A program made the translations under genes and the position numbers. From contig MKTW01000012.1 of assembly GCA_001898405.1 (NCBI GenBank), positions 124,001 to 188,000 of the forward strand: a stretch of 64,000 nucleotides of DNA. The letters are read 5' to 3'. Origin of the DNA: Sphingobacteriales bacterium 44-61. GTDB lineage: Bacteria > Bacteroidota > Bacteroidia > Chitinophagales > Chitinophagaceae. Shown in pieces: positions 3,950-8,745 of the stretch (within the stretch, counting starts at the first letter, position 1; every line of letters starts with the position of its first letter). The notes beneath the pieces are model-generated. The model was given only the letters and a program-made list of their open reading frames with translations, did not search any database and was not told where the DNA came from.

Positions 3950-5302
3950 TCATGTTTTGTCTTTATTGATGCGTTTATCCCTGATCTGCTTAAGTGTTTT
4001 ATTGACGGTTGAATTATCCTGTTCGATCTTCGAAAAGCCCACTCTTTGAGAAAGATAGATGCCGGTGTGGCCACTGAAATAATAAGCAGTGAAGCAGGCA
4101 ACAGCATAATACAGGATATAGTCGCCACCGAAAAGTTCTACTCCCATGATCGTGCACGCAATTGGCGTGTTGGTAGCGCCGGCAAATACAGCAATAAAGC
4201 CCAGTCCGGCCATCAGGTCAACAGGTGCTCCAGTGATCATAGCTATAGTATTTCCCAATGCAGCACCTATAAAAAATAAGGGTGTTACTTCTCCGCCTTT
4301 AAAACCCATGCCCAGTGTGATTGCCGTGAATATAATTTTCCAGAACCAGCTTAAATATCCTGCCCCTCCTTCCGAAAAACATGAGATAATAGATACACTA
4401 CCAGGTTCAGGGTTTGTTACTCCAAGGCCCAGGTAATCCCTTGTTCCTGTTACAGTCGTTAAGGCAATAATGATCACACCTCCAAGTGCAGGGATCAGCC
4501 ATTTGATCTTAATAAAACGGTTGCTGTAATTTTTGATCGTGTGGGAGAGTTCGGAGAAGAAATAGCCAGCCAACCCGAAAAATACCCCTGCAATAATGGC
4601 TTTTCCCAGAAGCAGGTAATCAAAATGCAGAAATGAAATATTGCTGGAATCTGCCGCTTTGAATGTAATGTAGTAAGCCGTGTGATGAATGCCATAGGCC
4701 GAGCAAGTGAAATCAGCCAGCACACTGGCGATAAAGCAGGGCATCAAAGCATTGTAATTCATTCTGCCGATCGCCAGTACTTCAAGCGCAAAGATGGCGC
4801 CTGTAACGGGCGTGCCAAACACAGCCCCAAAGCCTGCGGCAATACCGCACATGAGAAGGATGCTGATATCCTGTTTGCTTAATTTAAACCAGCGGCCCAG
4901 TAGTGCCGCCATACTTCCGCCCATTTGCACAGCTGTACCTTCCCGGCCTGCGGAGCCACCGAATAAATGTGTAATGACCGTAGTACCTAAAACCAATGGC
5001 GTCATACGGGAAGGAACGCCTCCACCAGGTTCATGGATCTCTTCCATGATCAGGTTGTTCCCCGCTTCCGCATTTTTACCAAGGTATTTATAAATAAAAT
5101 AGATCAGGATGCCGGCCAGGGGAAGAAGGTACAATAACCAGCCTTGCTGCCAGCGTAATTCGGTGGCTTTATCCAGTAACCATAAGAACAAGGCAACCAG
5201 CGAACCGACAATAAAGGAAACAGGGATAGTGAGAAGTGTCCAGCGAAGGAGATGGTGGGTGATAGCAATATGCTCGAAACTGGTCTTTAATTTTCTTATC
5301 AT
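3950..5302 (-). CDS. CLC-family antiporter, probably the fluoride/proton type (CLC-F)
   Basis: 450 aa with about 10-12 hydrophobic segments. The canonical chloride-selectivity motif GSGIP is replaced by GNNLI (residues 81-85), and the gating-glutamate motif is GREGT (119-123, Glu121) instead of GREGP. To my knowledge both variants mark the fluoride-exporting CLC-F clade. [18 protein letters not shown] and [15 protein letters not shown] are the other CLC signatures. The likely role is export of F- in exchange for H+ across the inner membrane. A fluoride-riboswitch-like leader directly upstream (5341-5399) supports this strongly. Automatic annotation would probably say voltage-gated chloride channel. 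ATG at 5302 follows the expression platform immediately. Confidence 0.9.
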
Positions 5303-5349
5303 CCTACAAATAGTTTAGAAGGCCATAAGGCCAGTACTTAATTTGTAGG
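5303..5349 (-). promoter_or_regulatory. Riboswitch expression platform (predicted translational switch)
   Basis: The 3' edge of the aptamer, CCUACAAAU (5349-5341), is perfectly complementary over 9 nt to AUUUGUAGG (5311-5303), which abuts the AUG at 5302. The aptamer pseudoknot and this pairing cannot form together. Inferred logic: without fluoride the initiation region is sequestered, and ligand binding frees it. A small GGCC-UUAU-GGCC hairpin lies between the two segments. Confidence 0.65.
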
Positions 5350-5399
5350 CGCCATTAGTTCTTAAGAAAGAACGGTTCAGTAGGAAGACACCATTTCCT
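5341..5399 (-). ncRNA. Fluoride (crcB-motif) riboswitch aptamer
   Basis: Read on the minus strand from 5399. A 5-bp stem AGGAA/UUCCU (5399-5395 with 5386-5382) encloses the loop AUGGUGUC. A 6-bp hairpin GUUCUU/AAGAAC with loop UCUU follows (5373-5358), then UAAUGGCGCCUAC (5357-5345). Loop bases GGUGUC can pair with GGCGCC (two G-U wobbles) as the pseudoknot that defines this class. Element order and the AUGG, AAUGG and CCUAC sequences match the fluoride aptamer as I remember it. The gene downstream is a CLC with fluoride-type motifs, the expected partner. Confidence 0.85.
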
Positions 5400-5441
5400 T
5401 GCAGGCAAAGATACAGTATCGGTCGTGAAAAGTGATGGAAT

Positions 5442-5471
5442 AAAAAACGCCGGTCAATACCGGCGTTTTTT
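5442..5471 (-). terminator. Rho-independent terminator of the tricorn-like gene
   Basis: Arms AAAAAACGCCGGT (5442-5454) and ACCGGCGTTTTTT (5459-5471) are perfect complements around a CAAT loop. The hairpin starts 5 bp past the protease stop codon. It is symmetrical, but leftward transcription of the protease is the obvious client, separating it from the riboswitch-CLC unit. Confidence 0.9.
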
Positions 5472-5475
5472 ATTG

Positions 5476-8400
5476 TTATTTTGATTTATCTGGAAATGGC
5501 GGAATCTTCGGTACTCCAGTCGCTCCACCTTGCGCCAGTTTGTCAAGCAACTCTTTTATACCACGCGTCAGTTGCTGGTCGACCCCTTTATATTCATCAA
5601 ACGGATCATTGACTACTTCAATATCCGGGTGCACGCCTTCACCCTCTATGACAAATGCAGAACCATCTGCTGCGAAATGGGCGAATTCTGGTTTCCGCAT
5701 ATCACCACCATCAATGAAAGGTAAGGAGCCGCTGATGCCGACCACGCCGCCCCAGCTGCGCTGGCCGATCAATGGACCGATCTTGTAATACTGAAACTGC
5801 CAGGGAAAAAGATCACCGTCTGAAGCAGAATACTGATCGATCAGGCAAACTTTGGGGCCAACGTGCGCATCCGGTTTGATGGAAGCGACTTTGCCATTGC
5901 GGCGCATGGTACCAAGGCCGGGTTTACGCAGTAAGCGCTCAATGATCATAGGCGATACATTACCTCCTCCGTTACCACGATCGTCGATGATGAGCGCTTC
6001 TTTGTCAAGCTGAGGATAAAAATACCGGGCAAATTGATTAAGCCCTTCCGGGCCCATATCAGGGATATGTACATAACCGATGCGGCCTTTGCTTGCTGCT
6101 GTTACTTTCGCAATGTTTTGCTGCACCCATTCATGATAATAAAGTGATGATTCGTCGGCAATGGGTTTGACAAGCACTTTGCGTGCGCCATTACTGGCCG
6201 GCGAGCTGTTCAGCTCAATTTCAACAAGCTGCCCTGCTTTGGCAATGAGTGTCTGGTAAATATTGGCAACATCCTTCATGGACGTACCATTGATCGAAAT
6301 GATATATTCACCGGCTTTGGCATTTACGCCGGGTACACGCAGCGGAGATACCAGCGTCTTGTTCCAGCTTTCTCCGGAAAGAATGCTGTCGATCCGGTAA
6401 TAGCCGCTCTTGTCGCGACTGAAAGTAGCGCCCAACAGCCCCATGGGTATGCGATCAATGGAAGGACGATCCCCACTGTTTACATACGCATGTCCAACAT
6501 TCAGTTCACCGATCAGCTCTCCAATAAGGTAGGTGAGGTCATCCCGGTGATTGACATAAGGGAGCAATGGTGCATATTTATCATGCATGGCTTTCCAGTT
6601 CACGCCATGCATGTTAGGGTCGTAAAAATAATCGCGCATCTGGCGCCAGCTTTCATCATAGATCTGCTTCCATTCAGCTTTCAGGTCCACATTGATCTTA
6701 AGTGCACTGAGGTCAACTTTATTGGAAGGAGTGATCTTTGATTTGCCAAGTGTTTCAATAAAGAGATCATTGCCGCTGCGGAAGAGGATCTTCTTTGCAT
6801 CAGGTGATACACTGTAACCGCCGAACATGCCAATTTCCGTTTCCTTACCATCTGCAAAACTGAAGAATTTGAAGCCGCGGCCTGCCCGTCCACCAACGGA
6901 ATAATAAAGACCGTCTTCAACTGGTACCAATCCGCCATATCCTCCGGGTGTTACCGGTAAGCTTTCAATGCGGTCTGCAATGCCTGCTTCATCAACTGTT
7001 ATGCTGATGGTTTTTGATGCGCTTTTCGCGGGTGCCGGTGCTGCTGATGCTTTTTTGTTACTGGTATCGGGTTCATTTTTGATCGATACCTCGTCATTTT
7101 TATCAGCAAAAGGAGATGGCGTTGCCGCACTTAAGCGTACAAAGTAAGGCCGGCTCATATCCGTATAAACGTGATTCCATTCTGTATTACCGTAAGTAGG
7201 GTTGAAATCGCGCTGCGATACGAAGTACAGGAATTTGCCGTCCGGGCTGAATTGGGCACCGGAACTGTTATACCAGTTATCTGTAACAGTGACCGTTTTC
7301 TTCGAATCGAGATTGTACAGGTTGATGACAGAGAATTCCCGCGCTTTCCCCGGAAGTGTATAAGCGATCCATTTACTATCCGGTCCGAAAGTGTAGGAGC
7401 CGATTGTGCCTAGGTCTGAATGTGCGACGGTTGTTTTATTTCCTGAAGAAATATCGATTGTATATAAGTTCTGCTCCCTGTCTCCAAACAAGAGGTATTT
7501 GCTGTCTGGGCTCCAGATGGGATCGAACTTATAAGAACCACCACCTTTAGTAAGCTGTTTCGCCGGTGCAGTACCATCCTGTTGCTGGATATACAGTTCA
7601 TCCTCGCCGGTGCGGTCGGAAATATAGCTGACCCATTTTCCATCGGGACTCCAGGCGGCATTACGGTCATGTACCCCGCTCGACTGAGTGAGATTGCGGG
7701 TGACGCCGGTTTTGGCAGGCAGGGTAAACACATCACCACGGGCACCGATAACAATGCGTTTGCCATCGGGTGAAATATCCGTACTGTAAATGAAATCAGC
7801 AGCGTTTATCTGCTTGGTGCGGCCTGATGCAAAATCTTCAGCGATCACGATATTCAATTTTTTTGCCTCGCCTTTTACCAGGTCATACAGGTAAATGTAT
7901 CCGCCATTTTCAAACACGATCGCATCGCCGCCAAGCGAAGGGAATTTGATATCAAACTCCTTAAAGTCGGTGAGCTTTTGTGTTTGTTTGGTTTTGGTAT
8001 CATAAACAAAAAGATTGGTTGTTCTGTCGCGGTCGCTGACAAAATAGACCTTGTCGCCATAATACATGGGGAACATATCCTGAGCAGGGTTGTTCGTAAT
8101 ATTTTCTGCTTTACCGGTTTTGGGGTCTGTGAGCCAGATATCATCTGCCATGCCACCGCGGTAATGCTTCCAGGTACGGAATTCCCGGAACACGCGGTTC
8201 ATGGCCATTTTTGATCCATCTTTATTATAAGAGACCCATGAAGCAACAGAGAAGGGGAGCTCCTTGCTGAGATCTCCGTTAAGCGGTGCCAGGTAAATCT
8301 TCCCTTTGAAGGCATTGAAGGATGTGCCGCGGCCGCGATAGATCACCTGTTTGTCATCAGGCGTCCATCCCATCACGATATTGTTGGGGCCCATACGGTC

Positions 8401-8745
8401 AGCCACGTCATCACGGCCAAGTGTTGCTGTGTAGGTAATGCGTTTGGGTTCTCCGCCGGTTGAGGGGATCACAAATACTTCGGTGTTGCCATCATACTGC
8501 CCTGTGAAAGCGATGGACTTGCCGTCATGGCTGAAACGGGCAAACATTTCATAACCCGGATGGCTCGTGATACGGCGTGCAACGCCACCTGAAGATGAAA
8601 CGATATACAGATCGCCGGCATAAGTAAAAGCGACCTTGTCGCCATAGACAGCAGGAAAACGCAGTAAGCGTGCTTCCTGTTGGGCAGTGGCGATCAGAAA
8701 GCAGCCACATAGAAGGATAGAGGCTATAAGTTTTTTCATACGCAA
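5476..8745 (-). CDS. Tricorn-like protease (S41 family, beta-propeller plus PDZ)
   Basis: 1089 aa, close to the usual tricorn length. A signal peptide ends at ATAQ. Residues about 25-560 hold WD40/PD40-like propeller blades (for example SPDGKWVSYISDRTGEDEL, SPDGKFLYFVSQRD). A PDZ-like region lies near 770-850, and the C-terminal S41 core carries His752 (VGHAYV), the RGNGGGNVSP segment and the nucleophile Ser975 (SASDGD). Tricorn enzymes trim peptides to short products; the signal peptide places this one in the periplasm. A low-complexity Ala/Pro/Lys linker lies near residue 560-580. It lies 82 bp downstream of the ROK gene on the same strand and ends in a strong terminator. Confidence 0.93.
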   Translation of the reverse strand: MRMKKLIASILLCGCFLIATAQQEARLLRFPAVYGDKVAFTYAGDLYIVSSSGGVARRITSHPGYEMFARFSHDGKSIAFTGQYDGNTEVFVIPSTGGEPKRITYTATLGRDDVADRMGPNNIVMGWTPDDKQVIYRGRGTSFNAFKGKIYLAPLNGDLSKELPFSVASWVSYNKDGSKMAMNRVFREFRTWKHYRGGMADDIWLTDPKTGKAENITNNPAQDMFPMYYGDKVYFVSDRDRTTNLFVYDTKTKQTQKLTDFKEFDIKFPSLGGDAIVFENGGYIYLYDLVKGEAKKLNIVIAEDFASGRTKQINAADFIYSTDISPDGKRIVIGARGDVFTLPAKTGVTRNLTQSSGVHDRNAAWSPDGKWVSYISDRTGEDELYIQQQDGTAPAKQLTKGGGSYKFDPIWSPDSKYLLFGDREQNLYTIDISSGNKTTVAHSDLGTIGSYTFGPDSKWIAYTLPGKAREFSVINLYNLDSKKTVTVTDNWYNSSGAQFSPDGKFLYFVSQRDFNPTYGNTEWNHVYTDMSRPYFVRLSAATPSPFADKNDEVSIKNEPDTSNKKASAAPAPAKSASKTISITVDEAGIADRIESLPVTPGGYGGLVPVEDGLYYSVGGRAGRGFKFFSFADGKETEIGMFGGYSVSPDAKKILFRSGNDLFIETLGKSKITPSNKVDLSALKINVDLKAEWKQIYDESWRQMRDYFYDPNMHGVNWKAMHDKYAPLLPYVNHRDDLTYLIGELIGELNVGHAYVNSGDRPSIDRIPMGLLGATFSRDKSGYYRIDSILSGESWNKTLVSPLRVPGVNAKAGEYIISINGTSMKDVANIYQTLIAKAGQLVEIELNSSPASNGARKVLVKPIADESSLYYHEWVQQNIAKVTAASKGRIGYVHIPDMGPEGLNQFARYFYPQLDKEALIIDDRGNGGGNVSPMIIERLLRKPGLGTMRRNGKVASIKPDAHVGPKVCLIDQYSASDGDLFPWQFQYYKIGPLIGQRSWGGVVGISGSLPFIDGGDMRKPEFAHFAADGSAFVIEGEGVHPDIEVVNDPFDEYKGVDQQLTRGIKELLDKLAQGGATGVPKIPPFPDKSK

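Follow-up and report, generated by a model that had tools for sequence, protein, structure and literature searches.

A fluoride riboswitch in the window (the whole stretch of 64,000 nucleotides that was analysed) appears to control the gene of a CLC-F type fluoride/proton antiporter, and most probably does so at translation, as an ON switch. The evidence consists of an aptamer match, an exact complementarity between the aptamer tail and the bases at the start codon, the covariation of these two segments in relatives, and the family of the encoded protein. In the proposed mechanism, when fluoride is lacking, AUUUGUAGG beside the AUG would pair with CCUACAAAU. This pairing would take up the two last bases of the pseudoknot 3' strand together with the U that the conserved UAC contributes to the 'linchpin' A-U pair, and would thereby open the aptamer and bury start-site positions -9 to -1. 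With Mg2+-fluoride bound, the pseudoknot and the linchpin would hold the CCUAC strand, leaving at most an AAAU/AUUU pairing, and the start site would become accessible to the 30S subunit; the transporter would then be made and fluoride expelled in exchange for protons. We infer the ON direction of switching, and control at translation instead of termination, from the lack of a U-tract after the helix and from ribosomes that ignore Shine-Dalgarno sequences. The features of the locus are collected in Table 1.

Table 1. Features of the riboswitch locus in the window
Feature	Position	Strand	Basis or remark
Terminator-like hairpin	5439-5474	both (reported on +)	between the 1089-aa ORF (5476-8745, minus) and the riboswitch
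Bacteroidota-type -7 promoter element TATCTTTG (TAnnTTTG)	5413-5406	minus	perfect; read from the sequence
Fluoride riboswitch aptamer	about 5399-5345	minus	RF01734 match and letter-by-letter check
P1, AGGAA / UUCCU	5399-5395 / 5386-5382	minus	letters checked
AUGG	5394-5391	minus	letters checked
Pseudoknot, GGUGUC / GGCGCC	5392-5387 / 5353-5348	minus	letters checked
P3 hairpin, GUUCUU / AAGAAC	5373-5368 / 5363-5358	minus	letters checked
AAUGG	5356-5352	minus	letters checked
CCUAC	5349-5345	minus	letters checked
Switching helix, 5' arm CCUACAAAU	5349-5341	minus	last two pseudoknot bases, conserved UAC and next four bases
Switching helix, 3' arm AUUUGUAGG	5311-5303	minus	start-codon positions -9 to -1; abuts the AUG
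CLC-F type fluoride/proton antiporter gene, 450 aa	5302-3950	minus	ORF, Pfam, PDB relatives, tree, conserved columns

Aptamer, transcript and CLC-F gene

When the whole 64-kb window was searched with cmscan and Rfam 15, the minus strand matched the full RF01734 model (positions 1-64) between 5407 and 5339, with 45.3 bits against a gathering cut-off of 34 bits and an E value of 2.4e-9. No other Rfam family exceeded its gathering score in the window, and in the 5.58 Mb genome the locus is the single RF01734 match at E <=0.001, again with 45.3 bits. The covariance-model search bears out the fluoride riboswitch claimed in an earlier note on this DNA, whose 5-bp stem, 6-bp hairpin, 6-bp pseudoknot and AUGG, AAUGG and CCUAC stretches were all recovered letter by letter on the minus strand, a strand that it had not named. 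The pseudoknot, which joins the P1 loop to the 3' strand preceding UAC, has six pairs, two of them G-U, and is absent from the cmscan structure line. The range assigned to the riboswitch, 5303-5399, does extend from P1 through the base preceding the ATG; however, the aptamer proper accounts for only part of it (Table 1) and 5344-5303 is expression platform, which had not been taken up; the mode of gene control had been left unstated. Fluoride binding by this aptamer is predicted from its family.

The TAnnTTTG element ahead of the aptamer (Table 1) is a recurrent feature, being found upstream of 36 of 60 Chitinophagales aptamers (all 61 except that of L060, which has too little upstream sequence) versus 3.6% of dinucleotide shuffles. 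In Flavobacterium johnsoniae, many transcription starts lie 4-5 nt past the -7 element (excerpt of PMC6847099). Because of this spacing, the start is expected at about 5401-5400, just before P1. Transcription would thus probably begin 1-2 nt ahead of P1, and the whole leader, about 99 nt, would be the switch. The hairpin at 5439-5474, which on the minus strand too reads as stem, loop, stem and six T, would separate the riboswitch transcript from the upstream 1089-aa ORF.

The ATG of the 450-residue ORF, at 5302, directly follows the leader. The protein matches Pfam PF00654 Voltage_CLC (E 3.1e-72), and the name of this family, 'Voltage gated chloride channel', is what favours a chloride channel or transporter preceded by a chance or unrelated RNA structure, a reading that we regard as extremely improbable. 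Against it stands, besides the upstream RF01734 match at E 2.4e-9, the protein itself. The GNNLI (residues 81-85) and GREGT (119-123) motifs reported earlier were confirmed and GEVTP (337-341) was found in addition, so that all three places carry the CLC-F signatures, given as GNNLI/GMGLI, GREGT/V and GEVTP in a 2024 review (excerpt of PMC11139923). The best solved relative is the CLC-F 6d0j (E 4.4e-57), the entries 6d0j, 6d0k and 6d0n spanning E 4e-57 to 5e-56, and the one other CLC among the PDB matches listed has E 1.6e-6. The four NCBIfam chloride models among the matches listed all fall far short of their cut-offs (102 vs 482, 57 vs 350, 51 vs 425 and 23 vs 312 bits). A quick maximum-likelihood tree was built from 66 CLCs, with long branches flagged for E. 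coli ClcA and 6d0j. One of its branches, with an SH-aLRT of 100, sets apart the 44 GREGT/V rows, the window gene and 6d0j included, and the protein is thereby placed with CLC-F, away from chloride-type CLCs. The rows of this tree were the two paralogues from the same genome, relatives, named CLC-F homologues, E. coli ClcA and 6d0j; it was built without L197 and L208, in which the script found no ORF, and without L222, which was never entered. Finally, RF01734 was present at three of four relatives' CLC-F loci scanned (L216 and L219 were omitted, their riboswitches being known already from the order-wide search) versus none of three GREGP-type loci.

Judged by its sequence, the gene is thus of the CLC-F type F-/H+ antiporter family, and F-/H+ exchange by its product is predicted; the published preference of CLC-F for F- is over 80-fold (excerpt of PMC11139923). 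The warning that a chloride-channel label would be wrong in function is supported to the same extent, since the Pfam name and the sub-threshold NCBIfam chloride models would mislead. The Enterococcus casseliflavus CLC-F (6d0j) aligns with residues 22-421 of the 450 and has its signatures at the same three places, with GEVTP in both proteins; however, it has GREGV and GMNLV where the window protein has GREGT and GNNLI, and it is a distant sequence from another phylum. Transport by the window protein is likewise a prediction.

The pairing of a riboswitch with CLC-F is already well known, and the window locus belongs to two known families: about 30% of CLC-Fs are riboswitch-regulated (excerpt of PMC11139923), and among named CLC-F loci RF01734 was present at 24 and absent at 16 of the 40 scanned, out of 80 found. 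What the pairing mainly provides here is the correction of a likely misannotation, from 'chloride channel' to fluoride exporter. The genome also holds one crcB (Fluc) gene (L072, G000:C1:172417-172758) and two further CLCs (L073 and L074), one of them of GAEGP type, and no RF01734 match over the cut-off was found at these three loci. Since crcB is also present, the CLC may not be the sole fluoride exporter; the co-occurrence of both exporter types is described as rare, at only about 3% of the strains surveyed in PMC11139923 (excerpt).

A helix at the start codon of the window gene

The segments CCUACAAAU (5349-5341) and AUUUGUAGG (5311-5303) are exact reverse complements of each other, and the resulting 9-bp helix is present in both the MFE and the centroid fold of the leader. 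The whole-leader fold has a z-score of -2.35, and the tail-partner helix reaches p 0.004 against 500 dinucleotide shuffles. For the bases of the 3' arm, the computed pairing probabilities are 0.91-1.0 in the free leader and 0.12-0.71 if only the downstream part is folded. For the AUG, the corresponding values are 0.01, 0.46 and 0.48 in the free leader and 0.30, 0.69 and 0.17 in the downstream part, A and U being higher in the latter. The AUG lies outside the helix and is paired to about one half at most in the masked state; masking therefore concerns positions -9 to -1 only.

The helix cannot coexist with the folded aptamer, because the two last bases of the pseudoknot 3' strand and the adjacent U are used by both. 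The ligand-free helix is thus exclusive with the aptamer and lies over the initiation site, as expected of a translational platform. The U of the conserved UAC, which we take to be U48 of the linchpin pair, is paired in this helix with the A at -3. Once the A40-U48 linchpin pair is broken, the pseudoknot can be disrupted by the expression platform (excerpt of PMC11077080).

Comparison across Chitinophagales

An RF01734 search of 396 Chitinophagales genomes gave 61 aptamers above the cut-off, in 57 genomes. According to inspected translations, these precede 45 CLC genes (one cut short), 13 crcB genes, two MFS transporter genes and one Na+/H+ exchanger gene; Pfam was run on one MFS gene and on a piece of the exchanger only, and the start codons of about ten leaders (e.g. 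L006, L027, L030 and L038) were set by hand from the translation. Matches below the cut-off (22-31 bits), of which 10 of 12 places were inspected, looked mostly chance-like by eye and enter no count.

When each leader was scored for its best helix joining the tail to sequence as far as +20, 51 of the 61 leaders beat 95% of 500 dinucleotide shuffles, and the other 10, both MFS leaders among them, fell short. At a fixed score threshold of 15, which leaves out four of these 61 leaders and 20 of 39 from other orders, a start-site helix was detected in 57. In 50 of these leaders, its partner strand ends between -1 and -7, most commonly at -1 (20 leaders); in the remaining seven, it covers the start or the first codons. 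The linchpin U is part of the helix in all but one (56/57). As in the window, it pairs with an A at -3 in 11 others, and position -3 pairs with another tail base in a further 22.

Covariation was assessed with the partner anchored by the GG nearest the start alone, so that the later pairs were free of selection; 56 of the 61 leaders qualify, five having no GG in the search range. The mean number of contiguous pairs beyond CC/GG was 6.68, against a permuted mean of 4.18 and maximum of 5.11, and none of 2000 permutations reached the observed value. With one row for each of the 24 distinct tails, 5.38 of 7 positions pair, against 4.17 on permutation (maximum 5.04; 0/2000), relatedness being handled in these counts solely by the collapsing of identical tails. 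Covarying tail and partner sequences include CCUGAUUAUA/UAUAAUCAGG, CCUGUUC/GAACAGG and CCUGUACAU/AUGUACAGG, and they point to mutations able to test the platform.

Over the 61 leaders, the pairing of positions -9 to +3 decreased from a median of 0.72 in the free leader to 0.52 when the downstream part was folded without the aptamer, a crude stand-in for an aptamer holding its tail, since ViennaRNA cannot score the pseudoknot. Pairing was lower in 52 leaders, by more than 0.2 in 29, and did not fall in nine. A first model of the fluoride-bound state, with the 3' strand held unpaired, had given medians of 0.71 (free) and 0.58 (held) and a drop of more than 0.2 in 21 of 61; it performed poorly because the freed 5' pseudoknot strand mispaired, and it was replaced.

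These results form a comparative case for a Chitinophagales platform in which a helix abutting the start codon covaries with the aptamer tail, which is what the comparison adds and is a modest refinement. No description of such a platform was found in the searched literature, whose coverage of subscription papers is thin. The wider reading is that, in Chitinophagales and part of the wider Bacteroidia, the platform is adapted to ribosomes that ignore Shine-Dalgarno sequences: the aptamer 3' end (pseudoknot bases, linchpin U and tail) would pair with the bases adjoining the AUG or, in several crcB genes, with the first codons, and in the window and those 11 leaders the linchpin U would pair with the A at -3, a Kozak-like determinant of the phylum. 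We give this generalization roughly even chances. One nucleotide would then be common to the ligand-sensing pair and to the start-site signal. In F. johnsoniae, an A at -3 and the structure around the start codon tune initiation (excerpt of PMC6847099).

Several leaders depart from the common arrangement. In six crcB leaders (L002, L003, L004, L005, L009 and L013), the tail partner overlaps the start codon or codons 1-5; where it covers these codons, the coding sequence itself carries the switching arm. Two of the 13 crcB aptamers sit ahead of a short ORF preceding crcB (L030 in G315; L038, G180:C1:843933-843996). There the helix lies ahead of the AUG of the short ORF, and crcB comes next in a different frame, at a distance from the stop of about 10 nt in L030 and about 110 nt in L038; our guess is that the short ORF is translationally coupled to crcB. 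L032 (G207:C1:630376-630441) and L033 (G295:C62:14954-15023) are second fluoride riboswitches, some 2.7 kb away from that of CLC-F in the same genome. Each lies ahead of an MFS transporter gene (Pfam MFS_1, run on L032 only), and these two MFS leaders have no start-abutting helix.

Mode of control and relatives in other orders

Control could instead be exerted mainly on transcription, which would end early when fluoride is lacking, through the switching helix or through the action of Rho on an untranslated leader. Fluoride riboswitches described in PMC11077080 and PMC13273304 (excerpts) do act on intrinsic terminators, and in the Verrucomicrobiales relative L168 the same tail pairs with GGTAGGAG, followed by eight T in a terminator-like arrangement, so that the same aptamer end is used differently elsewhere. 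Among the 57 Chitinophagales helices, a U-rich stretch follows the partner in seven; however, the window is among the 50 in which it is absent, and six of the seven cases lie past the AUG. In the window, AUGAUAAGAAAA comes after the helix, with no U-tract, and a scan of 5200-5560 for an intrinsic terminator at the aptamer 3' end gave the hairpin at 5439-5474 and no other. On these two grounds, control of the window gene by a terminator was rejected, and mainly transcriptional control in the wider sense is unlikely, although Rho-dependent termination or decay of untranslated mRNA may take place.

Another reading accepts the aptamer and takes the GUAGG before the AUG as a site kept for Shine-Dalgarno-like recruitment of the ribosome, its pairing with the tail being incidental. 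Purine stretches with GG near the starts do resemble the Shine-Dalgarno core. However, GUAGG stands immediately before the AUG and not at the distance of about 7-9 nt expected of a Shine-Dalgarno element (excerpt of PMC6847099), the start-site sequence covaries with the tail, and Bacteroidia ribosomes fail to recognize Shine-Dalgarno sequences (excerpt of PMC9976891). Moreover, a Shine-Dalgarno-like motif is found at one of the 35 ORFs of the window, and GTAGG within -12 to -1 also at one of the 35, namely the CLC. Spacing, covariation and the biology of the phylum led us to reject this reading as very improbable. Masking of the start site, the mode that we favour, offers a compact comparative example of the way in which translation could be gated by a riboswitch in a phylum that dispenses with Shine-Dalgarno sequences.

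Pseudomonas syringae and Burkholderia pseudomallei use Shine-Dalgarno sequences. Their fluoride riboswitches are translational controls in PMC13273304 (excerpt) and resemble the window riboswitch in the aptamer class, the lack of intrinsic termination and the presumed translational control. In contrast to them, the window riboswitch would mask the bases next to the AUG, and the ribosomes of its phylum make no use of Shine-Dalgarno sequences. With the crcB motif as first described (RF01734; Weinberg 2010, PMC2864571), the window shares a full-length match, P1, P3, the pseudoknot, the conserved stretches and a place in the 5' UTR of a fluoride exporter gene. However, terminators overlap the motif 'in many cases' in that description (excerpt), whereas the window partner abuts the start codon and is followed by no U-tract. 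For TPP riboswitches in Bacteroides, a preprint title in the reference list of PMC7366714 (excerpt) states regulation of transcription or translation.

A class-wide search of 395 genomes gave 40 above the RF01734 cut-off, six of which had already been counted within Chitinophagales; the sample from other orders comprises 39 aptamers over the cut-off. At the same threshold, a helix was present in 19 of the 39, and it ends at -1 to -8 in eight of these 19. In the anchored test, which covers the 23 of 39 leaders with a GG near the start (16 without GG being left out), the mean was 3.39 versus 1.99 on permutation (0/2000), a much weaker signal than in Chitinophagales. Per distinct tail, 4.29 of 7 positions pair versus 3.45, a value that eight of 2000 permutations reach. 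By eye, short-leader crcB genes of these orders mostly lack the pattern, and one idea for the CLC leaders of Sphingobacteriales is that two short helices flank an internal loop.

Two further arrangements were observed. Niastella vici (L118:1880-5347) has a fluoride gene cluster, in which a riboswitch, a CLC-F gene, a small protein gene and two ORFs that by eye are crcB-like and UspA-like are followed by a second riboswitch and a divergent CLC, in which GREDA replaces GREGT and GNNLI is missing; the gene runs off the locus. In L091, L103 and L104, the riboswitch lies ahead of an ORF of 184 aa whose GTG start is located at the helix. The L104 copy of this ORF gave no Pfam match over the cut-off, and by eye the ORF may be a frameshifted phosphatase-like gene; in L104, it is followed by a transporter-like ORF and enolase.
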